Counted from the stretch's first letter, positions 24,313 to 46,468 are shown. The stretch is DNA of 64,000 nt from Herbaspirillum sp. AP02 (GCF_015767275.1 NZ_JADWMY010000002.1:62001-126000); one strand, 5' to 3'. The notes: generated by a model not told the origin, from the letters alone. A program made the numbers and translations.

Positions 24313-24957
24313 CTATTCCGCCCGCGCCTTGCGGGCGGTTCGCTTGGCGGCGGCCGGAGCTTCCGGGGCAGCTGCCGGCGCTTCCGTCTCGCCCAGCAGC
24401 AGATTGGTCATGATGTCGGCGATGGCACTGACATCGCGCACGTCGCCGAGATGCTGGTTGATGGTGAAGCCATCGAACGCCATCCAGATGACATGGGCCA
24501 GCAGGTCGTTGCGCACCAGGTGAGCCCGCTCCGGGGGAAGGGACTCGCTGATCAGGGCCGTCAGGAAGGTTTCCACATCCATCAGCAGCGTATTGGGCTT
24601 GGTCATGCCCTGGGGCGACACGGCCAGGGCTTCGATCAGCGCGTTGGCGAAGGAATGATCGCTGGCCGGTATGTCGCCCCAGATCCCTGTGAAGACCCGG
24701 CGCAGGCGTGAGCGCGGCGTGCGGAACTTGCGGACCGACTCGGCCAGCGCCTGCAGCTGCTGTTCCAGCCAGGGCTGGTAGATCTCATAGAGGATGGCCA
24801 GCTTGGAATCGAAGTACACATAGAGATTGGCCACGGTCATGTTCGACGCCCGTGCGATCTCGGCCATGGTGGTCGGCGTATAGCCCTTGCGGGAAAACAG
24901 ATCGAAGGCCGACTCCAGGATGGCCTCGCGCATGCCGCTCTTCTTGATTTGCGCCAC
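24313..24957 (-). CDS. TetR family transcriptional regulator
   Basis: A 214-residue TetR-type repressor: N-terminal helix-turn-helix (ILESAFDLFSRKGYTPTTMAEIARA, recognition region NMTVANLYVYF) and a C-terminal ligand-binding domain. The tail is rich in Ala/Lys/Arg. I chose the GTG at 24957 with AGAGGA upstream; an ATG at 24933 is the alternative. It is divergent from the Rieske oxygenase operon, and the promoter of that operon contains a GAATGACATTC palindrome of the kind TetR dimers bind. It is therefore the best candidate for local control of the whole catabolic regulon, including the distant porin and chemoreceptor (inference). Confidence 0.88.
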   Translation of the reverse strand: MAQIKKSGMREAILESAFDLFSRKGYTPTTMAEIARASNMTVANLYVYFDSKLAILYEIYQPWLEQQLQALAESVRKFRTPRSRLRRVFTGIWGDIPASDHSFANALIEALAVSPQGMTKPNTLLMDVETFLTALISESLPPERAHLVRNDLLAHVIWMAFDGFTINQHLGDVRDVSAIADIMTNLLLGETEAPAAAPEAPAAAKRTARKARAE

Positions 24958-25068
24958 GATTCCTCTTGCGTGCTGGTAATGAATGGCGTGGATTCTAGCA
25001 CGCAAGCCCTTTCCTGCTGTCCCTGTCCCCGGATCTTCTCTCTTCCCCACAACGGTGAATCCTTTAAA

Positions 25069-25095
25069 CAATATTCGCTTTTGAGCGCGATATTG
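25069..25095. promoter_or_regulatory. Inverted repeat between TetR and Rieske genes
   Basis: CAATAT at 25069-25074 and ATATTG at 25090-25095, with further partial symmetry inside (TCGC ... GCGCG). It lies 112 bases before the TetR start and may be an autoregulatory operator. The rest of the 381-base region up to the promoter at 25235 shows nothing recognisable. Confidence 0.4.
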
Positions 25096-25234
25096 GTGCA
25101 ATGCCGGTGCGGTAAGAGGGCGAATCCGCTACCCCGGCGTGCTTCGCCAAAGCCCGCTGTCGTGTTGTGGTGCAGCATGCTGAAGGCGTGTTGCCAGGCC
25201 TTTTTCACCTGTCCTTGAAATCGATCAAAAACGC

Positions 25235-25277
25235 TTGACATTCATTTTTGAGGAATACAGAATGACATTCGTTATTA
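25235..25277 (+). promoter_or_regulatory. Promoter and operator of the Rieske catabolic operon
   Basis: Consensus -35 TTGACA at 25235-25240, 17-base spacer, -10 CAGAAT at 25258-25263. The -10 overlaps a perfect palindrome GAATG-A-CATTC (25260-25270) within AGAATGACATTCGTTATTA. A further half-site CATTCATT lies in the spacer. A bound dimer would block polymerase. Near-identical sequence occurs at two other promoters at 43441-43483 and 43826-43868. Confidence 0.75.
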
Positions 25278-25338: not shown

Positions 25339-26616
25339 ATGAACAAGGTCATCAAGCTACATCTGCACGATCGCTATCCGGAACTGGGCAAGGGGCCTGT
25401 TCCTGTCGAACCGTACATCTCCACCGCCTACTACGACAAGGAACAGGCCAAGATCTTCAAGAAGACCTGGCTGCACGTGGGGCGCGTGGAAGAGATTCCC
25501 GCCGCCGGCGACTACTTCGTCAAGGACCTGGAAGCCTGCGAAGCTTCCATCATCGTGGTACGCGACAAGCAGGGCGCAATCAATGCCATGCATAACGTTT
25601 GCTCGCACCGCATGAACCAGATCGTCTACGAAAAGCGTGGCCAGGCGCGCAAGTTCTTCTGCAAGTTCCACGGCTGGGCCTATGATCTGCAGGGCAACCT
25701 GACCGGGGTGCCGGAAGAGGGCTCCTTCTTCGATCTGGACAAGTGCGACCACGGTCTGTCGCGCGTGGCCTGCGAAGTCTGGCAAGGCTTCATCTTCATC
25801 AACCTCGATCCCACCCCGGAACTGTCGCTGGCGCAGTTCCTGCAACCCATGTTCGGTGATATCGAAGGCTATCCCTTCGACAAGATCACCACCGGCTTCC
25901 AGTGGACCACGGTGGTCAATTGCAACTGGAAGCTGGCGCTGGACGCATTCCAGGAGGCCTACCACGTGGCCTATGTGCACGGCCATTCGATCGCCGATGC
26001 CATCGATACCGCCGAGGACGGCGCCATGCCGCCCCTGGATGCACTGTGCGGACAATTCCATCGACGCCTGTCCATCGCCGGCAATCCCAAATCGGTCTAC
26101 GGCAATCCCAATGCGGTGACCGCCGGTGGCGAGCAGGCCAGCAAGGCCATCGCCGACTCGGCCGTGAAGAAGCCCATTGCTGCCGCCGCACTGCGCGCCG
26201 GCATGGGGGCGGCCAGCTACCACTTCCGCAAGGAAGACCTGCCCAAGGGCATGAATTGGACCGGCCACGAGAACTGGCTCTTCGATATCAATGTCGTGTT
26301 TCCGGACTTCTACCTGTCGCTGCGTCCGAACTACTTCCAGGCCTACAACTTCCGGCCGATCTCCCAGGGCAAGACCCTGCTGGAGGCGCGCGTGTACTAC
26401 CCGGAAATGAAGACCGCCGGCGGTCGCTTCTATCTCGAATACATGAAGGTCGCCCTGCGCGATGTCCTGCTGGAAGACTTGAGCACATTGGAACGTACCC
26501 AGAGCGCGGTGCAGACCGGCGTGAAGAAGGAAATGATCCTGCAGGACTACGAGCTGCTGGTCCGCCACGGCGCCCACGTGGTCGATCGCATCGTCAATGA
26601 AGAAACCAAGGCCTGA
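25339..26616 (+). CDS. Rieske non-haem iron oxygenase, alpha subunit
   Basis: A 425-residue ring-hydroxylating or demethylating oxygenase. The Rieske [2Fe-2S] ligands are Cys88, His90, Cys108 and His111 in the exact C-x-H-x17-C-x2-H pattern. The mononuclear iron site is in DAFQEAYHVAYVH with His209 and His214 and the bridging Asp202 position. GAGGGAG just upstream of the ATG at 25339 fixes the start (the frame opens at a GTG 12 bases earlier). It is the first gene of a long operon that also encodes a Rieske ferredoxin and two possible reductases, so a three-component system is available. No beta subunit of the usual cone type is encoded; a SnoaL-like protein (29089) is the only candidate. Confidence 0.93.
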   Translation: MNKVIKLHLHDRYPELGKGPVPVEPYISTAYYDKEQAKIFKKTWLHVGRVEEIPAAGDYFVKDLEACEASIIVVRDKQGAINAMHNVCSHRMNQIVYEKRGQARKFFCKFHGWAYDLQGNLTGVPEEGSFFDLDKCDHGLSRVACEVWQGFIFINLDPTPELSLAQFLQPMFGDIEGYPFDKITTGFQWTTVVNCNWKLALDAFQEAYHVAYVHGHSIADAIDTAEDGAMPPLDALCGQFHRRLSIAGNPKSVYGNPNAVTAGGEQASKAIADSAVKKPIAAAALRAGMGAASYHFRKEDLPKGMNWTGHENWLFDINVVFPDFYLSLRPNYFQAYNFRPISQGKTLLEARVYYPEMKTAGGRFYLEYMKVALRDVLLEDLSTLERTQSAVQTGVKKEMILQDYELLVRHGAHVVDRIVNEETKA

Positions 26617-26629
26617 GGAGTCGCCCGCA

Positions 26630-27016
26630 ATGAATTCGCCGCAACCAGCAAGCCCCCAAGGCGCCATCACAAGCGCCATCAGCCTTCCGGCCCGTTTTGC
26701 CCATCTGATGCCGTTCAGCCATTGGAGTCTGGCCACCGAGACCGAGCGCACCCGCATGCGCAATACCAGCGCGTTCGCCGACATCGTGGCCTTCAAGGAC
26801 GCCATGCTGGCCGATGTCGATGCCATCGTCGCCTACCTCAACGGCTTCGAACTGGATGCCATGGCGCCGCCGGAAGCAGCGCTGATGTACATGCTGCTGT
26901 CCCTGGCCGAGGTGGCGCCGGCGGTGGAGGCCTACCAGCAGCCGGGCGTGATCGATGGCTATGAGTTCTCGCGCTTCGTGGCCGATGAGAAGTTCGTCAT
27001 GCGCCCGCCGATCTGA
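26630..27016 (+). CDS. Hypothetical protein in catabolic operon, 128 residues
   Basis: Not recognised. Starts at the ATG at 26630 with GAGGAG ten bases upstream. The protein is predicted helical and soluble: SLPARFAHLMPFSHWSLATE, then a stretch FADIVAFKDAMLADVDAIV and a leucine/alanine-rich segment ALMYMLLSLAEVAPAVE. It has no Cys cluster and no signal peptide. It lies 13 bases after the oxygenase alpha subunit and is likely translated with it, which suggests an accessory or small subunit of the oxygenase (inference). Confidence 0.8.
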   Translation: MNSPQPASPQGAITSAISLPARFAHLMPFSHWSLATETERTRMRNTSAFADIVAFKDAMLADVDAIVAYLNGFELDAMAPPEAALMYMLLSLAEVAPAVEAYQQPGVIDGYEFSRFVADEKFVMRPPI

Positions 27017-27046
27017 GCCGACGCTGTCATCAACCAAGGAGCTTTC

Positions 27047-27460
27047 ATGCCCAAATGCAGAGTGTTCGCCATCGACGATAACCTCAAGGAGATCGTGGCC
27101 GATGGCTTGTATGGCAAGCACATGTTCGGCGCGTCCGTCAGCGTGGCGGTGGTCAAGTTCGTCGCCGCGCAGGGGCATGACCTGCCTGCCAAGTCGCATA
27201 GCCACGGCGAGGAAGCGTCCTTGCAGCTGCTGGGTGGCTGCTCCGTTTTCGAAAGCAGTGACAGCGAAGAGACCGACCTCGAATCGGTGATGGATAGCGG
27301 TGATGCGCTCATCATTCCGGCCGGGGTTTTGCATTACGGCAGCAACCGCTTCGGTGCCGAGGGCGTGTCGCTGCGCCTGAACGTGGTGACCCCGGCGCGC
27401 AAGGAGTATGGCCCGGAGGATTCGACGCCGTATTACCCCCTCAAGAACAGGAGTCGCTGA
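27047..27460 (+). CDS. Cupin protein with full metal site
   Basis: A 137-residue single-domain cupin. Both cupin motifs are complete: His51 and His53 in SHSHGEEASLQLLGG and GDALIIPAGVLHYGSN with His96, so a mononuclear metal can be bound. Small cupins in aromatic or heterocycle pathways act as dioxygenases, isomerases or regulators; the sequence does not tell which. AAGGAG precedes the ATG. The next gene, starting at 27462 with one base between stop and start, encodes a second cupin. Confidence 0.85.
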   Translation: MPKCRVFAIDDNLKEIVADGLYGKHMFGASVSVAVVKFVAAQGHDLPAKSHSHGEEASLQLLGGCSVFESSDSEETDLESVMDSGDALIIPAGVLHYGSNRFGAEGVSLRLNVVTPARKEYGPEDSTPYYPLKNRSR

Positions 27461-27461
27461 G

Positions 27462-27830
27462 ATGTCCAGCCTGTCGAACCCGACCGATCCGCATTGCCAG
27501 CCGCTGCAAACCGACTGGCAGAATCCGCAGGCAGCGCCCGGCATGCATGCCATCGAGGGCCAGCACCTGAACATCGGCATCGGCGTCTTCCGTCGTGGCC
27601 AGCACAGCGAGGTGCCGCCGCAACCGCAAGGCGAGGAAGTGGCGACCGTACTGGAGGGGATGTTCCTGGTCGAAGCCGCTGGCGAGCGCTACGAGCTGTC
27701 GCCCGGCGAGGGCATCATCATTCCGCCCAATGAGCCACGGCGCTGGACCTGTCAGAGTGAGCGGGGCGCGCTCTATCGCGTCATCACCCGCCTGGACAAG
27801 CTGCCGCCGGTCGAGGAGTCGGTGTCATGA
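27462..27830 (+). CDS. Cupin protein lacking metal ligands
   Basis: A 122-residue cupin paired with the preceding one. The fold motifs align, but the HxH of motif 1 is Gln-Pro-Gln (residues 54-56, VPPQPQGEEVATVLEG) and the motif 2 His is Arg93 (IIIPPNEPRRW). All metal ligands are thus lost while the glycines and prolines of the barrel remain, pointing to a binding or structural role, perhaps as a heteromer with the intact cupin. Its stop codon overlaps the start of the ferredoxin reductase gene (ATGA). Confidence 0.8.
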   Translation: MSSLSNPTDPHCQPLQTDWQNPQAAPGMHAIEGQHLNIGIGVFRRGQHSEVPPQPQGEEVATVLEGMFLVEAAGERYELSPGEGIIIPPNEPRRWTCQSERGALYRVITRLDKLPPVEESVS

Positions 27831-29092
27831 ACCACCGTCAGCCGCAAGCGCAGGGCGCGCCGCAGGATCAGCGCGTGTTGATCGTCGGTGCCGGGCATGC
27901 CGGTGGGCGCGTGGCGCAAGCCTTGCGCTCGGATGGTTTCGGTGGCCGTATCCTGCTGCTGGGTGCGGAGCCGCACACCCCCTATGAACGGCCGGCCCTG
28001 TCCAAGGAACTGCTGCTGGGCAGCAAGACCGTGGACGAACTGATGCTGGGGCCACGCAGCTTCTGGGAGGACCCCGCCATGGTCGAACATCGCCAGGGCG
28101 TGGTCGCCCGTATCGACGACTTGCGCCAGGCCCATCTGGAGAGCGGCGAGGTCATCCCCTTCGACATTCTGGTCGTGGCATCCGGTGGTCAGGCTCGTGG
28201 TCTGACGATCCCCGGTGCGGATCTGCCCGAGGTCAGGGTCCTGCGCACCATCGAAGACTGCCTTGCGTTGCGCCCGGCCATGGCCCAGCAGCGTCGCCTG
28301 CTGGTGATCGGCGGTGGCGTGATCGGCATGGAGGCGGCGTCCTCGGCGGCCGCCCTGGGCATGGAAGTGACCGTGGTCGAAGGCGGGGCCCGGGTGATGG
28401 CGCGGTGCCTGCCGCCGGAAGGATCGCAGTGGCTGCAGGCGCTGCACGAACAGCGCGGCATCAAGGTGCTGACCGGCATGAGCGTGTCGGGCATCGCGAA
28501 GACGGCCGAAGGATTGCGCATCGACGCGCAGTGCGCCGGACAGGAAATGGCGCTGGCGGCCGACCTGGTGCTGGTGGCGGTGGGTATTTCGCTCAATACG
28601 GCCTTCCTGGAGGGCAGCCCGGTGCGCCTCGATAACGGCGTGCCGACCGATGCCTGGTGCCGCAATCCGGATGCGCCGTGGTGCTATGCCGTGGGCGACG
28701 TGGCCAACAGCTTCAGCCCCTTGTACGGGCGGGCATTGCGCCAGGAGACCTGGCGCAATGCCGAAAATCAGGCGCGTGCGGTATCGGCCGCCATCGTCGG
28801 CCGACCGGAGCCGTATATCGAAGTGCCGTGGATGTGGACCGATCAGCTTGATCGCAATATCCAGGTGGTCGGCATCTATACGCCGGGCGACCTGGTGATA
28901 TCGCGCATTCCGCCAGGGGAGAGGGCCGGCGTGCTGCTCTGGCTGCATGAGGGCAGGGTGGCCGGCGGCATGCTGGTCGACAGTGGGCGGGAGCGCCGCC
29001 AGCTTGAAGAACTGGTACGACGCGGCTCCACCATCGATGCAGCGGTGCTGCGCGATCCTGCCATTTCGCTCAAGGAACTGGTGCGCTCATGA
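27827..29092 (+). CDS. FAD-dependent ferredoxin reductase (oxygenase electron-transfer type)
   Basis: A 421-residue NAD(P)H-dependent flavoprotein of the BphA4/putidaredoxin-reductase type. FAD motif VLIVGAGHAGGRVAQAL at residues 14-30, NAD motif LLVIGGGVIGMEAASSAAAL near 160, FAD motif YAVGDVANS near 285, and a C-terminal dimerisation domain. It would pass electrons to the Rieske ferredoxin at 31462 and then to the oxygenase. Translationally coupled to both neighbours (four-base overlaps at each end). Confidence 0.92.
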   Translation: MNHRQPQAQGAPQDQRVLIVGAGHAGGRVAQALRSDGFGGRILLLGAEPHTPYERPALSKELLLGSKTVDELMLGPRSFWEDPAMVEHRQGVVARIDDLRQAHLESGEVIPFDILVVASGGQARGLTIPGADLPEVRVLRTIEDCLALRPAMAQQRRLLVIGGGVIGMEAASSAAALGMEVTVVEGGARVMARCLPPEGSQWLQALHEQRGIKVLTGMSVSGIAKTAEGLRIDAQCAGQEMALAADLVLVAVGISLNTAFLEGSPVRLDNGVPTDAWCRNPDAPWCYAVGDVANSFSPLYGRALRQETWRNAENQARAVSAAIVGRPEPYIEVPWMWTDQLDRNIQVVGIYTPGDLVISRIPPGERAGVLLWLHEGRVAGGMLVDSGRERRQLEELVRRGSTIDAAVLRDPAISLKELVRS

Positions 29093-29643
29093 GCAACCTG
29101 GAACAACGCGTGGCCGCACTGGAAGCAGCCGAAGCGATCCGTCAGCTCAAGGCGCGCTATGCCAGCCTGGCCGATCAGAAATATACGATGAACTACCAGC
29201 GGCAGCCGCCGCTGCGCATGGAAAAGATCGCGCTTGCCCAGGCCGCCTGCTTTACCGAGGACGCCATCTGGGAAGGCGGCGCCGAGTTCGGTGCCAGCCT
29301 GGTCGGGCGCGATGCGCTGGCGCAGTGGTTCATGCGCTCGCCCTGGTGCTATGCGCTGCATTACTACGGCAGTCCGGAGATCAGCGTCGAAGGCGACGTC
29401 GCCTCGGCACGCTGGCGACTGTGGCAGATCGCACTGCGTGAGCAGACCAAGAAGGCGGTGCTGCTGGGCGCGCTGACCTACGAAGAATATGCCCGCGACC
29501 AGCAGGGACAGTGGCTCTGTTCACGCATGCGCTTCGAGCAGACCCAGATGCTGCCCATCGATGCAGGAGCCTTCCCGCTGGTGACGTCCTTCGAGCAGAT
29601 TACCGATGCCGCCGTGCGTGCATCCTCTTCCACCCACCTCTAG
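29089..29643 (+). CDS. SnoaL-like (NTF2-fold) protein
   Basis: A 184-residue protein of the SnoaL/NTF2-like fold: N-terminal helix LEQRVAALEAAEAIRQLKARYASL, then a conical barrel with WEGGAEFGASLVGRDALAQW and HYYGSPEISVEGDVASARW. Proteins of this fold serve as hydroxylase beta subunits, dehydratases or isomerases. In this operon it may replace the missing beta subunit of the oxygenase or act on the oxygenated product. It overlaps the reductase stop by four bases. Fold is probable, role open. Confidence 0.8.
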   Translation: MSNLEQRVAALEAAEAIRQLKARYASLADQKYTMNYQRQPPLRMEKIALAQAACFTEDAIWEGGAEFGASLVGRDALAQWFMRSPWCYALHYYGSPEISVEGDVASARWRLWQIALREQTKKAVLLGALTYEEYARDQQGQWLCSRMRFEQTQMLPIDAGAFPLVTSFEQITDAAVRASSSTHL

Positions 29644-29648
29644 AGATC

Positions 29649-30533
29649 ATGACCAACAGCGTCCCTATCCCGCTGCAGCCAGCGCCGAGTACAGCGGCCT
29701 CGTCCTGCGGCGGCCACTGCGCAGATTTCACCATCGCCGAGAACCTGTGCCAGGTACTGAGCAATGCGTGGGTCAACGCCGAGTACAAGCACCTGGTCCT
29801 GAAGGCGCCGCCGATTGCGCTGGCGGTGCTGCCGGGTCAGTTCTTCCACCTCAACTGCCCGCCCTCCGGCAACGACGTACCTTACCTGCGCCGACCGATG
29901 AGCCTGTACCGGGTTTCGCCGCAGGACTGCACCATCGAATTCCTCTACAAGGTACAGGGCGCCGGTACCCGTGGCCTGGCCACCCTGGAGCCGGGTGCCA
30001 CGCTGGACGCCTTCGGGCCGGTCGGCCAGGGCTTTACTCTGCCGCCGCAGGCCCGCCATGTGCTGGTGCTGGCGCGTGGCGTGGGCCTGGCCACCATGGC
30101 CCCGCTGGCCCAGCACGCGGTGCAGCGCGGGGCAAGGGTGACGGCCATCCTCTCGGCGCGTTCGCCGGCCCTGGTGATGTCGGAGCAATACCTGCGCTCG
30201 GTGGGGGCAGATGTCATCGTGGTGCATGACCAGGATGGCAGCAGCGACATCGCCCACATCGAAAAGCTGGTACGTGAACGGCATGCGCAGCTGCCCTTCG
30301 ACCTGCTGACCACCTGCGGTTCCAACCGCTTCCTGCTGGCGTTGCAGCGACTGGGCCAGGAGCTGGACGTGCCGGCCCAGGTGGCGCTGGAGCAATTGAT
30401 GGGGTGTGCGCTGGGTATGTGCTTTGCCTGCGTGCGGCCGTTCCGCAAGAGTCCCGGTTCGGAAACGATGAGTTACAGACGCGTGTGCTGGGATGGCCCG
30501 GTGTTCGACGCGCAGGAGACAGTGACATGGTAG
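29649..30533 (+). CDS. PyrK-like flavoprotein with [2Fe-2S] cluster
   Basis: A 294-residue protein like the electron-transfer subunit of type 1B dihydroorotate dehydrogenase. A FAD-binding barrel with YLRRPMSLYRV and a NAD-binding lobe with VLVLARGVGLATMAPLA precede a C-terminal cluster motif with Cys253, Cys258, Cys261 and Cys280 (C-x4-C-x2-C-x18-C, ending VCWDGPVF). The GGGIG-type nucleotide motif is changed to ARGVGLA. It directly precedes and overlaps the PyrD-like gene. Placement inside a catabolic operon argues against pyrimidine biosynthesis; the pair more likely reduces or oxidises a ring intermediate. Confidence 0.87.
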   Translation: MTNSVPIPLQPAPSTAASSCGGHCADFTIAENLCQVLSNAWVNAEYKHLVLKAPPIALAVLPGQFFHLNCPPSGNDVPYLRRPMSLYRVSPQDCTIEFLYKVQGAGTRGLATLEPGATLDAFGPVGQGFTLPPQARHVLVLARGVGLATMAPLAQHAVQRGARVTAILSARSPALVMSEQYLRSVGADVIVVHDQDGSSDIAHIEKLVRERHAQLPFDLLTTCGSNRFLLALQRLGQELDVPAQVALEQLMGCALGMCFACVRPFRKSPGSETMSYRRVCWDGPVFDAQETVTW

Positions 30534-31465
30534 ACATGAGCGTATCCATCGGTAAGCTGACCTTGCAGAATCCGGTCATGCCAGGCTCCGGGACCTTTGC
30601 CGAGGGCATGGCCAAGGTGATTGATCTCAATCGTCTGGGTGCCATCGTCACCAAGACCATCACCAGCGACCTGCGCGAGGGCAACACTCCGCCACGCGTG
30701 GCCGAGCTGCGCAATTCCACCTTGTTCTCCATCGGTATTCCCAGCAAGGGGCCGGAGCACTATCTGGAAGAGCTGGTGCCGTTCTACCGGAATTACACGC
30801 CCCCTCTGGTGGCCAGCATTTCGGCCAATACCGTGGAAGAGTTCGGTGAGCTGGCCGCACGCCTGAGTGTGCCGGGCGTGGCCGCCATCGAGGCCAATAT
30901 CTCCTGTCCCAACCTGAAGAAGGATGGCCAGGCCTTCGGCATGGACCCGCAGGCCACCGAAGCGGTGATCAAGGCGATGAAGCGAAATACCGACCTGCAG
31001 GTCTGGGCCAAGCTCTCGCCCAATGTCGGCAGCATCGCCGTGATCGCCCGTGCCGCCGAGCAGGGCGGCGCAGACGCCCTGGTCAGTTCCAACGCCATCC
31101 TGGCCATGGCCATCGATATCGAAAGTCATCAACCCAAGGTCGCCAACCTGATGGGCGGGATCACCGGCAGCGCCACCAAGCCCATCCTGTTGCGCATGGC
31201 TTACCAGGCGGCGCAGGCGGTCAGCATTCCGGTCATCGGTTGTGGCGGCATCGCCACCGCCGAGGACGCCATTGAATACCTGCTGGCCGGTTGCACGGCA
31301 GTACAGGTGGGCACCGCCAATTTCATCAGCACCAGCGCCATGCCGCGCGTCATCGACGACCTCCAGGCCTATTGCCTACGTCGTGGCATTACCCGTATCC
31401 GCGACCTGGTCGGGGCGATGAAGGTGCATGAGGCCAAATTGCTGGAAGCGAGGGCCGGCCTGTGA
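30527..31465 (+). CDS. PyrD-like (class 1B) dehydrogenase, catabolic
   Basis: A 312-residue FMN-binding TIM barrel related to type 1B dihydroorotate dehydrogenase. Recognisable parts are NPVMPGSGTFAEG, TKTITSDLREGNTPPRV, NISCPNLKKDG with the active-site Cys position, and IPVIGCGGIATAEDAIEYLLAG for phosphate binding. The ATG at 30527, overlapping the PyrK-like gene, has AGGAG upstream. Together with the PyrK-like subunit it would form an NAD-linked complex similar to bacterial dihydropyrimidine dehydrogenases. The substrate loop differs from biosynthetic enzymes (NSTLFSIGIPSKG in place of the usual NSIGLQN), so another cyclic substrate is plausible. Confidence 0.87.
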   Translation: MVDMSVSIGKLTLQNPVMPGSGTFAEGMAKVIDLNRLGAIVTKTITSDLREGNTPPRVAELRNSTLFSIGIPSKGPEHYLEELVPFYRNYTPPLVASISANTVEEFGELAARLSVPGVAAIEANISCPNLKKDGQAFGMDPQATEAVIKAMKRNTDLQVWAKLSPNVGSIAVIARAAEQGGADALVSSNAILAMAIDIESHQPKVANLMGGITGSATKPILLRMAYQAAQAVSIPVIGCGGIATAEDAIEYLLAGCTAVQVGTANFISTSAMPRVIDDLQAYCLRRGITRIRDLVGAMKVHEAKLLEARAGL

Positions 31466-32873: not shown

Positions 32874-32965
32874 AGGCCGCCAGCAGTCAGTAGCACGCAG
32901 CGCAGCGCCCACGGAGCGGGCGGACTATACGAATGACAGGCAATTGAAAGAGGAGCGAATCAAGC

Positions 32966-33514: not shown

Positions 33515-33602
33515 TGGCGCAGGACGGTCGATCACAGTCAAGTTTTCCCGCACGCAGCAAGCAGCATTCGTAGTTCAACCTTAGCCACGAACAGGAATGA
33601 AA

Positions 33603-38211: not shown

Positions 38212-38265
38212 GCATGTGCATCCCGGCTGCGCTCACCCGGCCTGTCACAACTTATCGGATATTGC

Positions 38266-39658: not shown

Positions 39659-42066
39659 GCGCCGCCGCCCAGACCGCGGCCGCTGGCCTGATCGGCCGTA
39701 GCGTCGCCCGCGCGGATGCCGAGCGTTTCGTGGCCGGACGCGGACGCTATCTCGACGACCTGGTGCTGGCCGATATGCAGCATGTGGTGTTCTACCGCAG
39801 TCCGTTTGCGCGTGCGCGCTTGCACGCGATCAATGTCGACGCCGCTGCGGCCATGCCCGGGGTGAGTGCGGTCGTCACCGGCGCCGACCTGGCGACCGTC
39901 TGCGCTGGCTGGACCACCCGCTTTGCCCTGTGGCCGGCGCATGTCTCGGCCCCGCAGAATCCGCTGGCTATCGATGAAGTGTTCTGGCAGGGCGAAGCGG
40001 TGGCGGCGGTGGTGGCCGCTACGCGCGCGCAGGCCGAGGACGCGCTCGAACTGATCGAGATCGACTGGGAGGAGGGCGAGCCCGTGGTGGACCCGAGCGC
40101 CGCACTGGAACCCGGCTGTCCACCCTGCCACCCGGCCATCGAGCACAACCTGGCGCTGGAGCGCAAGATCGGCAAGGGTGATGTGGCCGCCGCATTTGCC
40201 GGCGCTGCCCAGGTGGTACGACGCCGTTTCAGCTTCGGTCGCCAGACCGGTGTGCCACTGGAGCCGCGTGGCATCCTGGCCAGCTTCGACCGGCGCACCG
40301 GTGAGCTGGACATCCAGCAATCCCATCAGGCGCCCTTCCAGATGCAGGAGATCTACGCCAGTCTGCTGGGCCTGCCGCTGGAGCGGGTCAGGGTCGCCAG
40401 CCCCGACGTGGGCGGCGCTTTCGGCATCAAGCTGCACGCCTATGCCGACGAGATCGCGGTGGTCGCCATTGCGATGCTGCTGGGCCGGCCCGTCAAGTTC
40501 CAGGCGGACCGCCTGGAATCCTTCGTCTCCGATGTCCACGCCCGGGACGCCAGCGTCGAGGCGCAACTGGCGGTGGATGCCGAAGGACACCTGCTGGGGC
40601 TGGACGTGGATCTGCTGTTCTGCTTCGGGGCGGTGTCCGCCTACCCGCGCTCCAGTATCGGCGAAGCCTTGCAGGCACTCGATCTGTGCGGCTCGGCCTA
40701 CCGCATCGACGCCTTCCGCGGGCGGGTGCGCGGGGCCTTCGTCAACAAGGTGCCGACCGGTGCCTATCGTGCCGTGGGTCAGCCCATCGCCTGCGCCGTC
40801 ATCGAACAGCTGATCGATGACGCGGCGGCGGCCATCGGCATGGATCCGGTCACCATGCGACGACGCAATCATCTGCCGGCGCGTCCGGCCGAGGCGCCGA
40901 TGCTGCCTGCTGCCGGCGGCATCCCACTGGGCCCGCTGTCATTGGACGCCTGCATGGATCAGTTGCTGGAGAACATGGATTACCGCCAGCTGCGCGCCAC
41001 GCAGGATGCGCTGCGCCAGCGCGGCGTCTATCGTGGCATCGGCTTGTGCACCTTTGTCGAGCTGACCGGCGTGGGCGCGGGCCTTTATGGACCCAATCAG
41101 GTCAGGGTGGCCGGCAAGGAGGGAGTGCGCCTGAGCCTGCTGCCCTCCGGTCACATTCAGTGCCGCACGAGCGCGACCGACCAGGGGCAGGGCACGCGCA
41201 CCGGCCTGACCCAGATCGTGGCCCAGGCCATGGGTAGTCCGCTGGAGACGGTGGCGGTGGCGGCCGGCGATACCTCCCGCGATCCACTGGGGGGCGGTGC
41301 CTGGGCCTCGCGCGGCATCTCCCTGGCGGGGGAAGCGGCCCTGCTGGCCGCAGCGCAGCTGCGCGCCAATATCCTGTCGATCGCAGCGGCCCTTGGTGAG
41401 CAATCGCAGGACGGGCTCGATATCGTCGATGGCATGATCATCGGGCGTGACGGCGAGACCTTGATGAGCCTGGCGGAGGTGGCGCTCAAGGCGCATTACG
41501 ATTCGACCGCCATCAAGCTGGACGTCATCCCGGAACTGACGGTGGAGCGCAGCTATGCGCCGACCGGCAAGCCCTACTTCGCCGCCAATGGCGTGCAGGC
41601 GGCGCAGGTCGAGGTCGATGTCGAGACCGGCATGATCCGCGTGCTGGACGTATGGGTGGTGGAAGACTGCGGACGTATCGTCAACCCGCTGCTGACCGAT
41701 GAGCAGATCCGAGGTGGCGTGGTGCAGGGGATAGGCGCGGCCCTGTTCGAGCAGTGCATCTATTCCGAGAACGGGCAGATGAGCAATGCCTCGCTGGCGG
41801 ACTATCTGATTCCGATGGCCTCAGAGATGCCCCAGATCCATGTGGGCCATGTGACCACGCCCGAGCGCGAAACCAGTCTCGGTGCCAAGGGGGTGGGTGA
41901 GGCCGGGACGGTGGGGGCCATTGGCGCCATCTGGTGCGCCGTCAACGACGCCTTGCGCCCCCTTGGGCAGGGTGTATGGCAGCAGCCGTTTACGCCGGCA
42001 CATGTGCTGGACGTGCTGCATCATCCCGAGATGCGTCAGGGCGAGGCAAGGCTGCCTCCCTTCTGA
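39655..42066 (+). CDS. Molybdenum hydroxylase, large catalytic subunit
   Basis: An 803-residue CoxL/XdhA-like subunit binding the molybdopterin-cytosine or -guanine type cofactor. The active-site loop reads PTGAYRAVGQP, not the VAYRCSFR of true CO dehydrogenase, so CO oxidation is unlikely. The catalytic Glu lies in AKGVGEAGTVG near the C-terminus; the Mo-cofactor region SPDVGGAFGIKLHAYADE is intact. Enzymes of this kind hydroxylate N-heterocycles or aldehydes using water. The ATG at 39655 overlaps the small-subunit gene. It is the last gene of the run and is followed by a strong terminator. Confidence 0.92.
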   Translation: MSAAAQTAAAGLIGRSVARADAERFVAGRGRYLDDLVLADMQHVVFYRSPFARARLHAINVDAAAAMPGVSAVVTGADLATVCAGWTTRFALWPAHVSAPQNPLAIDEVFWQGEAVAAVVAATRAQAEDALELIEIDWEEGEPVVDPSAALEPGCPPCHPAIEHNLALERKIGKGDVAAAFAGAAQVVRRRFSFGRQTGVPLEPRGILASFDRRTGELDIQQSHQAPFQMQEIYASLLGLPLERVRVASPDVGGAFGIKLHAYADEIAVVAIAMLLGRPVKFQADRLESFVSDVHARDASVEAQLAVDAEGHLLGLDVDLLFCFGAVSAYPRSSIGEALQALDLCGSAYRIDAFRGRVRGAFVNKVPTGAYRAVGQPIACAVIEQLIDDAAAAIGMDPVTMRRRNHLPARPAEAPMLPAAGGIPLGPLSLDACMDQLLENMDYRQLRATQDALRQRGVYRGIGLCTFVELTGVGAGLYGPNQVRVAGKEGVRLSLLPSGHIQCRTSATDQGQGTRTGLTQIVAQAMGSPLETVAVAAGDTSRDPLGGGAWASRGISLAGEAALLAAAQLRANILSIAAALGEQSQDGLDIVDGMIIGRDGETLMSLAEVALKAHYDSTAIKLDVIPELTVERSYAPTGKPYFAANGVQAAQVEVDVETGMIRVLDVWVVEDCGRIVNPLLTDEQIRGGVVQGIGAALFEQCIYSENGQMSNASLADYLIPMASEMPQIHVGHVTTPERETSLGAKGVGEAGTVGAIGAIWCAVNDALRPLGQGVWQQPFTPAHVLDVLHHPEMRQGEARLPPF

Positions 42067-42086: not shown

Positions 42087-42114
42087 AGGCGCCGTCGTGA
42101 CGGCGCCTTTTTTT
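42087..42114 (+). terminator. Terminator of the catabolic operon
   Basis: AGGCGCCGTC and GACGGCGCCT form a perfect 10-bp stem around GT, followed by seven T, 21 bases after the large-subunit stop codon. Confidence 0.92.
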
Positions 42115-42211: not shown

Positions 42212-43309
42212 TCAGAAGGTATGCCGGATGCCGGCCATCACGCTGGACTGGTTCTGGCCGACACCGACCGTGCTGCCGGAGCTGACGGCAATGGCGGCGT
42301 TGCCGCGATTCTTGATGTACGCATACGACGCGTAGAGGCTGGTGCGCTTGGACAGGAAGTAGATCGCGCGCGCCGTGCCCAGCGTGCTGTCGTCGGGTGA
42401 GTTGCGGGTATCCAGATGAGCCACCTGGCCTTCGACCTGCCACTGTGGCGTGAGCGCGTAGCTGGCGCCGAGATACCAGAGGTTGTAGTTGATATCGACC
42501 GCACGTTGCAGGTGGCGGGCAATCAGGCCACCACCGATCTTCAGATCGCCGACCTTGAACCAGCCATTGAAGGAGGCGCGGTTGTCCTTGTAGTTGCTGC
42601 TGGTGAGCAGGTTGCCCGCCCCGGCGCCGCCGCGCAGGGTATCGTAGGCGGTGGCGACACCCCAGGTGGCGGTGTCGTACTTGATCAACGCCGTCCACTG
42701 GCGACAGGCTTGCGCGTCGGCGGCGTTCTCGCCGGCGCAATTGGTGGCGGCAGGCCCGCCCGCCGCAGAAGTATCGCGACCGAAGCTATAGGTGGCGCCC
42801 ACGGTGGTGTTGCCGATCTTGTTCATGTAGCCCAGCGCATTGTCGCTGCGCGTGTTGGGCAGGTAGGAGTCCATGTTGGACAGGCCGTGGTTGGCCGGTC
42901 CCATGATGTCGGCGGCGATCAGCGAGATGGCCGTCATGTTGTACTGGCGACCCAGCGTGAAGGTACCCCAGGTCGGGTCCATCAGGCCGACATTGGATTG
43001 TCGTCCGAACAGGCGGTTGCCCTGGCCCATGCCGCCGGTGGTCGGCACGAAGCCGCTTTCCAGATTGAAGAAGGCGCGCATGCCACCACCCAGGTCCTCG
43101 ACCCCTTTGAAGCCGATGCGCGAGGGCAGCAGTCCGGTCAGCGGCAGTGTACGCAGCTTGCCCTGGCCGGCGGCATTGGTGTGATTGAGATATTCGACCC
43201 CGGTATCGATGATGCCGTAGATGGTGACACTGCTCTGGGCCATCGCTTCGGTACCCAGCCCCCCCAGGCACAGGCCGGCGGAGACGGCGGCTAACAGACG
43301 TTTCTTCAC
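42212..43309 (-). CDS. Gram-negative outer-membrane porin (cluster copy)
   Basis: A 365-residue trimeric-porin family protein. It starts with GTG at 43309, preceded by AAGGGG, giving a signal peptide cleaved near TEAMA-Q and a mature start QSSVTIYGIIDTGVEY, the usual betaproteobacterial porin opening. RIGFKGVEDLGGGMRAFFNLESGF and the C-terminal aromatic GIRHTF (needed for outer-membrane assembly) are present. The frame extends upstream to 43483 but that part is promoter. It carries the same promoter palindrome as the Rieske operon and is the likely outer-membrane entry for its substrate. Confidence 0.92.
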   Translation of the reverse strand: MKKRLLAAVSAGLCLGGLGTEAMAQSSVTIYGIIDTGVEYLNHTNAAGQGKLRTLPLTGLLPSRIGFKGVEDLGGGMRAFFNLESGFVPTTGGMGQGNRLFGRQSNVGLMDPTWGTFTLGRQYNMTAISLIAADIMGPANHGLSNMDSYLPNTRSDNALGYMNKIGNTTVGATYSFGRDTSAAGGPAATNCAGENAADAQACRQWTALIKYDTATWGVATAYDTLRGGAGAGNLLTSSNYKDNRASFNGWFKVGDLKIGGGLIARHLQRAVDINYNLWYLGASYALTPQWQVEGQVAHLDTRNSPDDSTLGTARAIYFLSKRTSLYASYAYIKNRGNAAIAVSSGSTVGVGQNQSSVMAGIRHTF

Positions 43310-43440
43310 TTTTATTTCCCCTTCAGGTTGAACAATCAAGACAGCGTTGAAAACCACCGCTGGCGGTGGCGCTACGGATGAATCGGACTGCAATGGATCT
43401 GAACGAGTGGGCGGCGCGGCGCCTGCTTTGATGCGCGTCA

Positions 43441-43483
43441 AATAATGAATGACATTATTTAATCTCAATAAAATGAATGTCAA
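43441..43483 (-). promoter_or_regulatory. Porin promoter with shared palindrome
   Basis: Read on the minus strand: TTGACA (plus 43478-43483), 16-17 bases, TAAATA or AAATAA as -10, then AATGTCATTCATTATT. The AATG-n-CATT core is at plus 43448-43456. TTGACATTCATTTT also matches the -35 region of the Rieske promoter. Confidence 0.7.
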
Positions 43484-43825
43484 TCGTTATTGTCGTGTGA
43501 GGGGAAAGTTTTTTCGTCACGCGTCCTTGCCGGGGAAGGCAGGGCAGGATGGCTGGGGAAACAAATGGTGCAGCCGTTCCGTCACATGCACTTAAAAATG
43601 AAGTTCAGCTGTCCATATTCGCATTTTTGGTGCGTTTTTTATTCTTCATGCTCATGGAAGCCCTATGCGTACTGGATTAGGGGGCGATGTGAGGAAATGC
43701 TCGCTATCGCATACCTCTGCGCTCCGTCGTTGTTCGTGTACGACGCTGCGTTGCCGATGCCGTGACGCTGACCTATCGAAGCGCAGTTGCACCACCTGAT
43801 GATGATGTCGATTGCGGAATTTTTC
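43484..43825. other. 342 bases between divergent porin and chemoreceptor promoters
   Basis: AT-richer than the surroundings, with T runs near 43508 and 43636. No gene or RNA is supported; a 91-codon frame at 43490-43765 has an unlikely composition and no ribosome site. Confidence 0.5.
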
Positions 43826-43868
43826 TTGACATCGAAGGATGCAAAATAACAGAATGATGTTCGTTATT
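43826..43868 (+). promoter_or_regulatory. Chemoreceptor promoter with shared palindrome
   Basis: TTGACA at 43826-43831, 18 bases, CAGAAT at 43850-43855, running into CAGAATGATGTTCGTTATTA. This differs from the Rieske promoter copy (CAGAATGACATTCGTTATTA) at two adjacent positions only. It lies about 60 bases before the start codon. Confidence 0.7.
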
Positions 43869-43923
43869 AATCGCGGGAAACTACCGCCGCCGCAGAGTTG
43901 GCCGGACGGTGCGAAGGAGGGGG

Positions 43924-45477
43924 ATGGTGAGCCAGCAGCAAGATGGTCGCGCACTGCGGCCGGGACAGTATCTGATCAGCCGGACCAGCTCGGAGGGCAT
44001 CATCACCTATGCCAACCAGGCGTTCGCCGACGAGGTAGGCATCCCCATGCAGGAGCTGGTGGGCATGCCCTATACGCGCCTGATCGATCCGGACGTGCCG
44101 GCCGAAGCCGTCAAGGACATGCGTCGTACCACGATCGAGCAGGGACGCCGGTGGGCAGGACTGACCTGCATCCGGGGCAGCGATGGGCAGCGCATCTGGG
44201 CCATGACCAATGTCTCGCTGGTGCGGGAAGGCGGGCGCGTGATCGGATCGACCTCGGTGCGCACCCATGCGCCAGCGGAGCAGGTCGGCTTCGCCGCTGC
44301 CATGTTGCGGCGCTTCAGGGAGCGGCGCGCCCGTGGCTGGACCGTGCGCGGTGGCCAGTTCCTGCGCACCGGTCTGCCGGGGATGGTGCAGCGGCTGTGG
44401 CGACCGGGGCTGCTCAAGCGGATCGTGTTGTGGCAGGCCTTGCCGTCGGCGAGCGCACTGGCAGCCGGCCTGCTGTGGTCCGCAGCAAGCCGGGTGCCGG
44501 CACTGGTCATGCTGGTGGTGACGTTGGCCATGCTGGTGCTGGGTAGTCTCTGGCAGCGACGACAGTTGATGCAGCCGCTGGAGCAGGCGACCGACTTTGC
44601 ATATCGGATGGCTGCCGGTGATCTCGATGCGCCCCTTGATCAGACCGCCCAGCCACATGCCGCCGATCTGGTACGAGCGCTTCTGCTGATGAGGAGCAGC
44701 CTGGTCAGCCTGATCGGCGAAGTCGGTCGTGATGTGCATGGCGTGACGCGGGCCTGTTCGGACATCGCAGCCGGCAACATGGACCTGTCCCAGCGCACCG
44801 AGAGCCAGGCATCGTCGCTGCAGGAGATTGCCTCCAGCATGGAGGAACTGGCCGCCACCATCCAGAACAATGCCGATCACGCCGTCTCTGCGGCGGCCAA
44901 TGCGGTGGCGGCTGCAGATGTGGCGCAACGCGGTGGGCAGGCCTTCGATCGTATCGTTCAGACCATGCAGGCCATGGCCGACGATGCCGCGCAGATCGGC
45001 CAGATCGTCAAGGTGGTCGAGGCCATCGCCTTCCAGACCAATATCCTGGCGCTCAATGCTGCGGTGGAGGCAGCCCGCGCCGGTGAGAACGGACGCGGCT
45101 TTGCGGTGGTGGCCAGCGAGGTACGTACGCTGGCCCAGCGCAGCACCACGGCGGCACGCGAAATCGCCGAGCTGATCACCGCATCGCTACGCAGCGTGAG
45201 CGATGGACAGAGGCAGGTGAAGACCTCGGCGACCACGATCACGGAGGTTGTCTCATCCATCGGTGGCGTGAGCGGCCTGATCGACGAGATCTCCCGCGCC
45301 AGCATCGAGCAGCGCGAGGGCGTGCAGCAGGTGGCGGCGGCATTGTCTTCGCTGGATCGCATTACCCAGCAGAATGCGGCGTTGGTGGAGCAGGCTGCGG
45401 CCTCGTCGGCGTCGTTGGTGGAGCAGGCCGGGGCGGTGAAGCTGTCGATGGGCGTATTTCGTCTGGCTGCGGTCTGA
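43924..45477 (+). CDS. Aer-like chemoreceptor with N-terminal PAS domain
   Basis: A 517-residue redox/energy-taxis type receptor. An Aer-type PAS domain occupies residues 10-110 (EGIITYANQAFADEVG, then MPYTRLIDPDVPAEAV and IWAMTNVSLVREGGRVIGS); such PAS domains bind FAD and sense respiration. A hydrophobic anchor lies at about 165-205, then HAMP and a signalling domain whose tip is [20 protein letters not shown]. No periplasmic domain. AAGGAGGGGG precedes the ATG at 43924 (a GTG three bases on is possible). Its promoter shares the operator of the Rieske operon, so it is probably made only when the substrate is used, guiding cells by metabolic output. XdhC follows 16 bases after its stop. Confidence 0.9.
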   Translation: MVSQQQDGRALRPGQYLISRTSSEGIITYANQAFADEVGIPMQELVGMPYTRLIDPDVPAEAVKDMRRTTIEQGRRWAGLTCIRGSDGQRIWAMTNVSLVREGGRVIGSTSVRTHAPAEQVGFAAAMLRRFRERRARGWTVRGGQFLRTGLPGMVQRLWRPGLLKRIVLWQALPSASALAAGLLWSAASRVPALVMLVVTLAMLVLGSLWQRRQLMQPLEQATDFAYRMAAGDLDAPLDQTAQPHAADLVRALLLMRSSLVSLIGEVGRDVHGVTRACSDIAAGNMDLSQRTESQASSLQEIASSMEELAATIQNNADHAVSAAANAVAAADVAQRGGQAFDRIVQTMQAMADDAAQIGQIVKVVEAIAFQTNILALNAAVEAARAGENGRGFAVVASEVRTLAQRSTTAAREIAELITASLRSVSDGQRQVKTSATTITEVVSSIGGVSGLIDEISRASIEQREGVQQVAAALSSLDRITQQNAALVEQAAASSASLVEQAGAVKLSMGVFRLAAV

Positions 45478-45493
45478 GGCAGGGCGGGCGGAC

Positions 45494-46468
45494 ATGGAAA
45501 GCCTGGATCTGGAGGTCTTGCGCACGGCCCGCGACTGGCGGGGGCAAGGACATCAAGTACAACTGTTCACGGTCGCGCGCACCTGGGGCAGCGCGCCCCG
45601 CAGTCCCGGGGCGATGCTGGCCATCCGGGACGATGGTCGCGTGGTGGGATCGGTCTCCGGCGGATGCGTCGAGGATGATCTGATCGAGCGCGTGCGTCAG
45701 GAGGGGGCGACGTCTGTGCGCCCCGCTGTTCTGGAATATGGCACCACGCGGGAGCAGGCCGCACGTTTTGGCTTGCCCTGTGGCGGAACCCTGGTCCTGG
45801 TACGCGAATCGCTGCCGGGCTCCGGCTGGCTCGACGACGTGCTGGAGGTCACCGCCGCGCAGGGGCGCATCCGGCGCCAGCTCGATCTGGCCAGCGGCCT
45901 GTCCCGCTGCACGCGGCTGGGCCATGCCGACGGTGCCTTGCGCCGGCCAGTGCTGGCGCAGCCCGACTTCACCGTATGCTACGGTCCGCGCTGGCGCCTC
46001 TTGATCATCGGCGCCGGACAGCTGTCACAGGCGCTGGCCAGGATGGCGCTGATGCTCGACTACGAGGTGCTGGTCTGCGATCCCCGCGAGGAGTATGCGG
46101 CGGGCTGGCATATCGCCGGTACCCGGCTGGTCGCCGGCATGCCCGATGAGGTGGTGCTGGAGATGAAGCCCGATTCCCACACCGCCATCGTGGCGCTGAC
46201 CCACGATCCCAAGCTGGATGACATGGCATTGCTGGAGGCGCTGACTTCTTCGTCCTTCTATGTCGGCGCCCTGGGTTCGCGTGCCAGCAGCCAGCGCCGT
46301 CGCGAGCGGCTGGCCTTGTTCGATCTCGGCGCGGTGCAGATTGCGCGGCTGCATGCGCCGATCGGTCTGCCCATCGATAGTCATAGGCCGGCTGAAATCG
46401 CCGTCTCCATCCTGGCGCAGATGACAGCCGTCAGGAATGCTGCGGGTCTATCCGGCGGTGACGGCTGA
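45494..46468 (+). CDS. XdhC/CoxI family molybdenum-cofactor maturase
   Basis: A 324-residue XdhC-type chaperone that inserts sulfurated Mo cofactor into hydroxylases. The N-terminal domain has TVARTWGSAPRSPGAMLAI and VSGGCVEDDLIERV; the C-terminal Rossmann part has LLIIGAGQLSQALARMA and ALTHDPKLDD, then YVGALGSRAS. It directly follows the chemoreceptor and presumably serves the CoxMSL-type enzyme at 38266-42066, which would place its expression under the same promoter. No CoxD/E/F genes are present. Confidence 0.9.
   Translation: MESLDLEVLRTARDWRGQGHQVQLFTVARTWGSAPRSPGAMLAIRDDGRVVGSVSGGCVEDDLIERVRQEGATSVRPAVLEYGTTREQAARFGLPCGGTLVLVRESLPGSGWLDDVLEVTAAQGRIRRQLDLASGLSRCTRLGHADGALRRPVLAQPDFTVCYGPRWRLLIIGAGQLSQALARMALMLDYEVLVCDPREEYAAGWHIAGTRLVAGMPDEVVLEMKPDSHTAIVALTHDPKLDDMALLEALTSSSFYVGALGSRASSQRRRERLALFDLGAVQIARLHAPIGLPIDSHRPAEIAVSILAQMTAVRNAAGLSGGDG

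Follow-up and report, generated by a model that had tools for sequence, protein, structure and literature searches.

Gene content and layout of the cluster

Positions 24313-46468 of a 64,000-nt stretch of the Herbaspirillum sp. AP02 genome (GCF_015767275.1, NZ_JADWMY010000002.1:62001-126000; hereafter the window, in which all positions are counted) carry a cluster of catabolic, transport and sensory genes built around a Rieske ring-hydroxylating oxygenase alpha subunit, RA. The genome around the window comprises 5.33 Mb. RA shares 99% identity with its counterpart in Herbaspirillum frisingense GSF30, a species that has been characterised as a non-pathogenic endophyte. Ten genes of the cluster form a core that recurs in related loci and may split a benzo-fused lactam acid into catechol and a C4 half-amide.

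Pfam and NCBIfam scans of the 23 cluster proteins recovered every gene named in an initial annotation of the window, in the order given there (Table 1). That annotation had treated the genes as one contiguous set; the set itself stands, but the layout gives three units rather than a single transcription unit. These are a + strand operon of nineteen tightly packed genes (25339-42066, intergenic gaps of -11 to 92 bases), the porin gene on the - strand, and a receptor-XdhC unit with its own promoter-like site. The remaining + strand terminator-like matches in the operon are weaker than the one that closes it, and all are intragenic.

Table 1. Genes and regulatory features of the cluster
Feature	Position	Strand	Basis
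TetR-family regulator, likely cluster repressor	24313..24933	-	PF00440; homologue in 24/33 related stretches
sigma70-like promoter TTGACA-17-CAGAAT with overlapping palindromic operator (AGAATGACATTCGTTATTA)	25235..25277	+	motif scan
Rieske ring-hydroxylating oxygenase alpha subunit (RA)	25339..26616	+	PF00355+PF00848
U128, predicted all-helical, no known family	26630..27016	+	Pfam/NCBIfam: no match
cupin-like protein 1	27047..27460	+	no Pfam match; 33/33 loci; HxHGEE in 33/33
cupin 2	27462..27830	+	PF07883 (Cupin_2); 26/33 loci
ferredoxin-NAD reductase (FdR) for oxygenase	27827..29092	+	PF07992+PF14759; HcaD/AndAa-like under cut-off
SnoaL/NTF2-like protein	29089..29643	+	PF13577 (SnoaL_4); 33/33 loci
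PyrK-like electron-transfer subunit	29649..30533	+	PF10418; PRK00054-type models under cut-off
PyrD (DHODB-like) catalytic subunit, altered site TLFSIGIPS	30527..31465	+	PF01180; PRK07259 over cut-off
Rieske ferredoxin (RFd)	31462..31842	+	PF00355; AndAb-like under cut-off
asparaginase-fold amidase, HGTA for HGTD	31839..32873	+	PF00710+PF17763
CoxG-like protein of molybdenum module	32966..33514	+	PF06240
LivK-type binding protein	33597..34796	+	PF13458; UrtA-like far under cut-off
LivH and LivM permeases	34793-35716, 35713-36735	+	PF02653 in both
LivG and LivF ATPases	36732-37499, 37492-38211	+	PF00005 in both
CoxM-CoxS-CoxL type molybdenum hydroxylase	38266..42066	+	Pfam; CoxL orthologues 46-99% in 10/29 genomes
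intrinsic-terminator-like hairpin and T-run closing operon, after CoxL	42087..42114	+	terminator scan
porin	42212..43309, open frame to 43483	-	PF13609
operator-like sites 5' of porin	43439..43493	-	28.4 and 17.9 bits; second overlaps third genome match
promoter-like site and operator of receptor-XdhC unit	43826..43869	+	34.7 bits in matrix scan
methyl-accepting receptor with PAS domain, Aer-like layout	43909..45477	+	PF00015, PF00989; MCP models under cut-off
XdhC-type molybdenum-cofactor maturation protein	45494..46468	+	PF13478+PF02625

Conservation of the ten-gene core

The core consists of the Rieske oxygenase, U128, two cupins, FdR, SnoaL, PyrK, PyrD, the Rieske ferredoxin and the asparaginase-like protein. 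It was compared in 33 related loci. Three Rieske queries run against genome contigs supplied 31 of these, from Burkholderiales, sphingomonads, Pinisolibacter and Rhodobacterales, and the other two are plasmids. The stretches reach 10 kb past the Rieske gene, and the separate comparisons used differing thresholds, so that small differences between counts result; whole-genome comparisons covered 29 genomes (L037 not included; L012 and L038 belong to one genome). All ten genes are present and collinear in 19 loci. Rieske, U128, cupin 1, FdR and SnoaL occur in each of the 33, the Rieske ferredoxin and the asparaginase-like gene in 32 each (the exception, L013, ends early). Co-occurrence of the PyrK- and PyrD-like genes with the Rieske gene, proposed in the initial annotation as a check, is conserved, with PyrK in 29 and PyrD in 28 stretches. 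The core is rare: at E 1e-60 with the Rieske query it was found in one of 300 sampled Burkholderiales genomes, that of AP02 itself.

Two further proteins accompany many of these loci. One, c12 (L012:17569-18264 and relatives), is a conserved protein of about 235 residues with no Pfam match and no profile match in PDB under E 0.18, which adjoins the core or a displaced PyrK-PyrD pair in 20 of the 33 stretches; it was not found in the AP02 genome by a search run without a positive control. The other, c13 (L012:6740-7441 and relatives), belongs to the arylmalonate-decarboxylase / Asp-Glu-racemase family, is present in 17 stretches and could act as a maleate-isomerase-like or decarboxylase step; the AP02 genome has only 27-28% matches to it. 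In two Novosphingobium loci (L039:18489-19775 and L026:18470-19738) an M20 peptidase-like enzyme lies between the MFS gene and c12, and could free a substrate from an amino-acid conjugate.

A shared operator

The palindrome AATGACATTCGTTATT overlaps the sigma70-like site 5' of the Rieske gene. A promoter scan of the window gave 4 sites against 3.6 expected in shuffles, no excess over chance. A 19-base operator pattern, derived from the very two sites that it finds (Rieske operon and receptor), matches twice in the window against 0.01 expected. With at most two mismatches, a 17-base version of this pattern occurs at three sites in the 5.33 Mb genome, all inside the cluster, and the reversed pattern at none; the third site, with two mismatches, lies 5' of the porin gene.

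In a matrix scan, operator-like sites were detected 5' of the Rieske gene in 23 of the 33 related loci. The matrix was trained on 22 Rieske-upstream sites (21 loci and the window), and the scores of those sites are therefore circular; the sites of the MFS, PyrK, porin and receptor genes were outside the training set. Shuffled loci yielded three matches of at least 13 bits in 764 kb. Of 21 loci with an MFS importer gene, 13 show a site of at least 20 bits in front of it. A displaced PyrK-PyrD-c12 group carries an operator 5' in two of three cases, Cupriavidus necator (L022 = L059; 30.6 bits) and C. lacunae (L060), the scan finding no match at the displaced group of Pandoraea (L061). In seven alphaproteobacterial loci a GTATAC-type palindrome stands in place of the operator, and eight related loci have a GntR-type neighbour (by protein clusters, and by annotation for plasmids).

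Together, these patterns support a single predicted regulon in which the Rieske operon, the porin and the receptor-XdhC unit share a TetR-type operator. The operator common to these three units supports the co-regulated unit for sensing, import and degradation suggested in the initial annotation.

Optional modules

The molybdenum hydroxylase has three subunits with MoCoBD, FAD_binding_5 and two [2Fe-2S] domains, which assign it to the xanthine-oxidase family. CoxL orthologues of at least 46% identity are present in 10 of the 29 genomes, the next best matches being at most 37% identical; CoxM, CoxS and CoxL are seen in 7 of the 33 stretches, as the Herbaspirillum stretches end short of the Cox genes. 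Assignment of CoxL as aerobic CO dehydrogenase was rejected, its scores being far under the curated cut-offs for that enzyme (489.7 of 950 and 450.6 of 991 bits). Among PDB matches CoxL is about equally close to quinoline 2-oxidoreductase and CO dehydrogenase. The layout of the window is resembled by a Caballeronia locus (L058), where the core is followed by CoxG-CoxM-CoxS-CoxL, a partial porin match, an MFS gene and the start of a receptor-like match. The strain concerned, Caballeronia sp. SEWSISQ10-4, has two core copies (L012 and L058), one with the molybdenum-hydroxylase block and the other with none in the fetched stretch.

Import genes vary likewise. The Liv importer is confined to three Herbaspirillum stretches of the 33, an MFS protein of at least 40% identity is found in 20, and Rhodobacterales loci have TRAP-type genes (annotation and protein clusters). 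The molybdenum hydroxylase and the Liv importer are thus optional add-ons, and as such do not define the substrate of the core. Of the gene set that the initial annotation had described as a system, the core holds; the molybdenum trio and the Liv importer do not hold as defining parts.

The Rieske oxygenase and its helical neighbour

The Rieske motif CxH..CxxH and the motif E-x-Y-H-x4-H are both present in 34 of 34 RA sequences. In the phylogenetic tree these 34 rows form one clade with support of 100/100; the branching order among the outgroups, several of them on long branches, is uncertain. Ten plasmid loci contain 12 oxygenases of this clade, two of them orthologues of RA. Each of the 12 has a U128 homologue next to it, and these loci contain no other copy. 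One plasmid locus (L042) contains a further, distant oxygenase, for which a profile search found no U128 homologue.

U128 belongs to no known family, is predicted to be helical and is the constant neighbour of one Rieske clade, so that a small family lacking any Pfam match accompanies every examined clade member; its relatives give scattered weak matches only. The AlphaFold (AF2) model consists of five helices with a confident core (mean pLDDT 83.9, pTM 0.68). Compared with PDB, the model gave no fold match better than E 2.1, and the profile nothing under E 0.18. A classical NTF2-type beta subunit is ruled out for U128, because the protein is predicted to be all-helical, and it has no PDB match. 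U128 may be a small subunit or assembly partner of RA, and the SnoaL/NTF2 protein encoded five genes past RA could be the beta subunit.

The L042 locus itself (L042:8959-19203, a Variovorax sp. WDL1 plasmid) combines a clade Rieske oxygenase and a U128-like neighbour with genes annotated as 2,5-dihydroxypyridine dioxygenase, isochorismatase and molybdenum hydroxylase, possibly a pyridine variant.

Altered active sites in PyrD and the amidase

PyrD is clearly of the dihydroorotate dehydrogenase B type (DHODB; 324.5 bits against a PRK07259 cut-off of 269, with the TIGR01037 cut-off also passed), and a separate PyrD gene is located on another contig of the genome. Alignments comprised 17 of 29 PyrD and 19 of 31 asparaginase-like sequences and, in alignment A9, 14 of 33, motifs being checked in all. 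In fold family, subunits and catalytic residues the window pair resembles the DHODB of Lactococcus lactis and catabolic PyrKD: the catalytic Cys (SCPN) is kept in 29 of 29 sequences and the active-site Lys in 17 of 17 aligned. It differs in its catabolic operon context and in the substrate loop, which reads MLNAIGLQN in the solved DHODBs (5ue9, 1ep1) but TLFSIGIPS in the window. The Asn of the NxIGL loop has a role in orotate binding. Its replacement by Phe (LFxIGIPS) is common to 28 of 29 relatives, the 29th being a short model without the region, and in the alignment with 5ue9 and 1ep1 the Thr following the distal Asn is replaced by Ala.

The nearest PyrD paralogues, 51-52% identical, retain the Asn (L062, L063). 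Operons with Asn-keeping PyrKD occur in Cupriavidus and Pandoraea (L064:2432-11506 and L065:6780-11502), adjoining a carbamoylase-type M20 enzyme and an MFS gene, joined in L064 by an amidohydrolase and an aspartase; from their gene content these operons apparently serve orotate catabolism. Operons of this Asn-keeping, orotate type lie elsewhere in two core-bearing genomes. A catabolic orotate reductase may be the ancestor of the window PyrKD, which would now act on a different substrate that shares the amide-C-C-carboxylate unit.

The amidase shows a comparable change. Its motif is HGTA in 31 of 31 relatives, in place of HGTD in the two solved asparaginases compared, while the Lys is kept in 19 of 19 aligned sequences. 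The protein scores under the NCBIfam cut-offs for asparaginase types and lacks the HGTD required for L-asparaginase II. In asparaginases the Asp of HGTD is part of the triad and of alpha-amino binding; its loss suggests a half-amide without an alpha-amino group as the substrate. The oxygenation and deamidation expected in the initial annotation are supported; the dihydropyrimidine-like ring that it had considered is not, given the Phe for Asn in PyrD and the absence of cyclic amidohydrolase and carbamoylase families among the 23 cluster proteins in Pfam and NCBIfam scans.

Ring-cleavage genes near the core

In 8 of the 29 genomes the Rieske gene has an intradiol dioxygenase gene (PF04444) no more than 25 kb away, where 0.65 would be expected; for a distance of 10 kb the observed number is six and the expected one 0.26. 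The expected counts were calculated from gene number and genome size, and the distances come from ten genomes, picked by eye, with both genes on one contig (G302, with 296 kb between them, was left out). The intradiol protein of L021 is just under the catechol 1,2-dioxygenase cut-off (369.8 of 392 bits), genes annotated as cat and pca adjoin the core on the Azospirillum plasmid L006, and some Rhodobacterales stretches encode muconate-cycloisomerase and CoA-transferase families. An intradiol gene is present somewhere in 26 of the 29 genomes. In the remaining three, an extradiol-type gene lies some 4 kb from RA (Pandoraea), a 50% homologue is located elsewhere (Pinisolibacter) or there is a 27% match only (Oceanicella). 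That genes for catechol-type ring cleavage lie close to the core in several lineages points to a benzo-fused substrate.

Comparison with known pathways

Among the matches listed in the literature searched, none appears to describe a pathway with this combination of enzymes, in agreement with the initial annotation, and the terms Rieske and catechol do not occur in the passages searched of the H. frisingense genome paper.

The iac pathway (Pseudomonas putida 1290, Caballeronia glathei) converts indole-3-acetate (IAA) via oxindole-3-acetate (oxIAA) and DOAA (3-hydroxy-oxIAA) to catechol. Its last part is left unresolved, the step from 3-hydroxy-oxindole to catechol being named in that literature as an unfilled gap. 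It shares with the window-type loci catechol as end product (predicted in the latter), a SnoaL-fold protein (IacI), a receptor, an MFS and an outer-membrane protein, and cat genes nearby. In contrast to iac, the 23 proteins of the window cluster include no match to the IacA (acyl-CoA-dehydrogenase) or IacE (short-chain dehydrogenase/reductase, SDR) families, whereas a molybdenum hydroxylase, PyrKD, cupins, an asparaginase-fold amidase, U128 and a TetR or GntR regulator are present. A Rieske-type step, that of IacC, is a further common point.

The iad system of Variovorax, which leads from IAA to anthranilate, also has a Rieske oxygenase and an ABC importer; its iadI is annotated as a formamidase and was proposed to be a broad amidase. 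It differs in that IadE is a beta-sheet small subunit, in contrast to the predicted all-helical U128, and in that enzymes near the window-type core are of the catechol, not the anthranilate, type. PDB entries 7yls and 8h2t, which we take to be the Variovorax IadD/E structures, rank only 28th of the 35 PDB matches of the window Rieske protein (E 8e-17).

A closer link is to indole and skatole. The Acinetobacter plasmid L008 encodes an oxygenase 40% identical to RA, a U128-like protein and an NTF2 protein, together with a styrene/indole monooxygenase, flavin reductase, SDR, ferredoxin, reductase, acetamidase and cat genes. In Acinetobacter piscicola p38, indole and skatole each induce gene 1684 (oxygenase) and catA, and skatole induces 1687 (monooxygenase) and 1690 (ferredoxin); 1687 with 1688 degrades both compounds. 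The spacing in L008 fits the p38 locus, a match drawn from gene numbers and not from p38 sequences. For the Rhodococcus ska cluster, the oxygenase was proposed to cleave the ring after SkaA forms 3-methyloxindole. Such loci are like the window in the clade oxygenase, U128-like neighbour, NTF2 protein, ferredoxin and amidase (L008), and unlike it in starting with a flavin monooxygenase instead of a molybdenum hydroxylase and in having an acetamidase/formamidase instead of the asparaginase fold; PyrKD is not annotated in L008.

An experimentally tested parallel for forming a lactam and then opening the ring to a catechol with a Rieske enzyme comes from lumichrome/riboflavin catabolism: the xanthine-oxidase-like LumJ acts first, and the Rieske system LumABCD then opens the N-heterocycle. 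Organism and substrate are different, LumABCD is an alpha/beta oxygenase according to its authors' sequence analysis, and the term dihydroorotate dehydrogenase is absent from the paper.

Proposed pathway and alternatives

We propose a scheme, to which the sequence comparisons lend slightly less than an even chance, in which a benzo-fused lactam acid, most likely of the auxin-derived oxindole-3-acetate type, is split into catechol and a C4 half-amide under control of the TetR-type regulator. The porin and the Liv importer would admit the acid, and the receptor would steer cells toward it. CoxMSL, matured by XdhC, would hydroxylate the carbon beside the nitrogen (from the indole to the oxindole level), and genomes without CoxMSL would take up the lactam directly. 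PyrKD would hydrogenate or dehydrogenate the C-C bond within an amide-C-C-carboxylate unit, a motif that dihydroorotate also has; in the dehydrogenating direction, subsequent hydration would lead to the 3-hydroxy-oxindole. Together with U128, FdR and RFd, the Rieske oxygenase would then dihydroxylate the N-bearing ring-fusion carbons; the hemiaminal would open, and a retro-aldol reaction would free catechol and the half-amide. From the latter the asparaginase-like enzyme, adapted to a substrate without an alpha-amino group, would yield ammonia and a C4 dicarboxylate, while catechol would enter the beta-ketoadipate route. The cupins and SnoaL may help in hydration or ring opening.

On chemical reasoning, a substrate of the oxindole-3-acetate type has the required amide-C-C-carboxylate motif and its cleavage would set free a C4 half-amide; with a skatole-type substrate the fragment would be a C3 amide, in keeping with the acetamidase of L008. 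That IAA or oxIAA is the actual substrate is a tentative suggestion, more probably wrong than right. Somewhat less probable again is a third, so far undescribed auxin-degradation route, in which IAA or its plant catabolite oxIAA would go to catechol, oxaloacetate and ammonia: a PyrKD drawn from orotate catabolism would form the 3-hydroxy-oxindole, the Rieske oxygenase with U128 as a new type of helical partner would split the ring system, and the retuned amidase would act on the amino-free half-amide. If true, a conserved regulon of plant-associated and marine bacteria would remove an indole-type signal by a route absent from the accessible parts of the iac and iad papers, and would provide a definite candidate for the conversion of 3-hydroxy-oxindole to catechol. 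Two apparently retooled enzymes have come to light in any case, a DHODB without its usual Asn and an asparaginase fold without its usual Asp.

Several observations weigh against the scheme or parts of it. The eight genomes with a nearby intradiol gene amount to about four lineages (three Cupriavidus, three Rhodobacterales, one Novosphingobium, one Herbaspirillum), and the Poisson tail therefore overstates the association; the other 21 genomes, that of the nearest relative (G300) included, have no such gene within 25 kb, and the two intradiol homologues of AP02 (50% and 47%) are both on other contigs. PF04444 takes in more than catechol 1,2-dioxygenases: the cut-off for that enzyme was reached by one of the four proteins scored, that of L008, and those of L030 and L006 are far under every cut-off, so that the scores also allow a substituted catechol. 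PyrKD is absent from stretches L006, L020, L021 and L023 (for L021, genome G312, it lies elsewhere on the contig, outside the core stretch). A search at 1e-40 found no PyrD in G311 or G314, which suggests that the PyrKD step can be bypassed and is not essential everywhere, nor in G304, whose PyrK sits at a contig end. In 8 of 21 loci the MFS gene lacks an operator site of at least 20 bits. The link to indole and skatole consists of an oxygenase of 40% identity and a gene order taken from gene numbers, the retro-aldol step comes purely from chemical reasoning, and no direct feature separates indole from other benzo-fused lactam acids.

A different benzo-fused or N-aryl substrate (for example a benzoxazinone, a quinoxaline-like compound or an anilide-type acid), yielding a catechol and a half-amide in the same manner, is an alternative that we regard as clearly less probable than the scheme above. 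It would suit the breadth of the Rieske clade, some members of which adjoin pyridine-type genes (L042) or CoA-transferase/dehydrogenase genes (L043), and the opening of quinoxalinediones by LumABCD. Taken alone, however, it leaves the orotate-like PyrKD and the amino-free half-amide site unexplained, and the nearest relative linked to experiment is the locus induced by indole and skatole.

Less likely still is a quinoline-4-carboxylate pathway, in which the molybdenum hydroxylase would form 2-oxo-1,2-dihydroquinoline-4-carboxylate, PyrKD would reduce C3=C4, the Rieske enzyme would attack the N-bearing carbon and the amidase would open the lactam, giving a substituted catechol. Structural reasoning places its N-C(=O)-C=C(COO-) motif nearer to orotate than oxindole-acetate, and the PyrKD paralogues belong to apparently reductive orotate-catabolic operons; the nearness of CoxL to quinoline 2-oxidoreductase, matching that to CO dehydrogenase, and the uncertain standing of the L030 and L006 intradiol proteins as catechol 1,2-dioxygenases are also consistent with it. 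However, it predicts a 3-substituted catechol, whereas L006 has cat/pca genes of the plain route and L021 a near-cut-off enzyme; a CoxL orthologue of at least 46% is missing in 19 of 29 genomes, and the asparaginase site suggests a free, small half-amide.

Catabolism of a pyrimidine, hydantoin or orotate-like ring is very unlikely. PyrD does exceed the PRK07259 and TIGR01037 cut-offs with the DHODB Cys and Lys kept, and a hydantoinase/oxoprolinase fusion is encoded 5.5 kb past XdhC, where the operator scan found no site; against this stand the Phe for Asn in 28 of 29 PyrD proteins (the 29th without the region), the lack of any cyclic amidohydrolase or carbamoylase match in the 23 cluster proteins, the Asn-keeping orotate-type operons elsewhere in two core-bearing genomes, and the linkage of the core to catechol-type dioxygenases. 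Finally, a chance patchwork of unrelated aromatic and transport genes, which the gaps of 92, 82 and 54 bases between the CoxG, Liv and Cox blocks and the lack of the Liv and molybdenum blocks in most relatives might suggest, deserves almost no credence for the core, given an operator found in this genome only within the cluster, full collinearity in 19 of 33 loci, and a second genus (L058) that keeps the core, CoxG-M-S-L, partial porin, MFS and receptor-like start together.

Neighbouring genes in the window

Upstream of the cluster lie genes for a manganese catalase (21801-22703, -) and a ZIP-type transporter (23257-24090, +). Downstream, a gene convergent with XdhC (46553-49123, -) encodes a protein with dCache and CheW-like domains, and in the region 51927-61059 the hydantoinase/oxoprolinase fusion gene (51927-55553, -) adjoins a second Liv-type importer (56200 onward).

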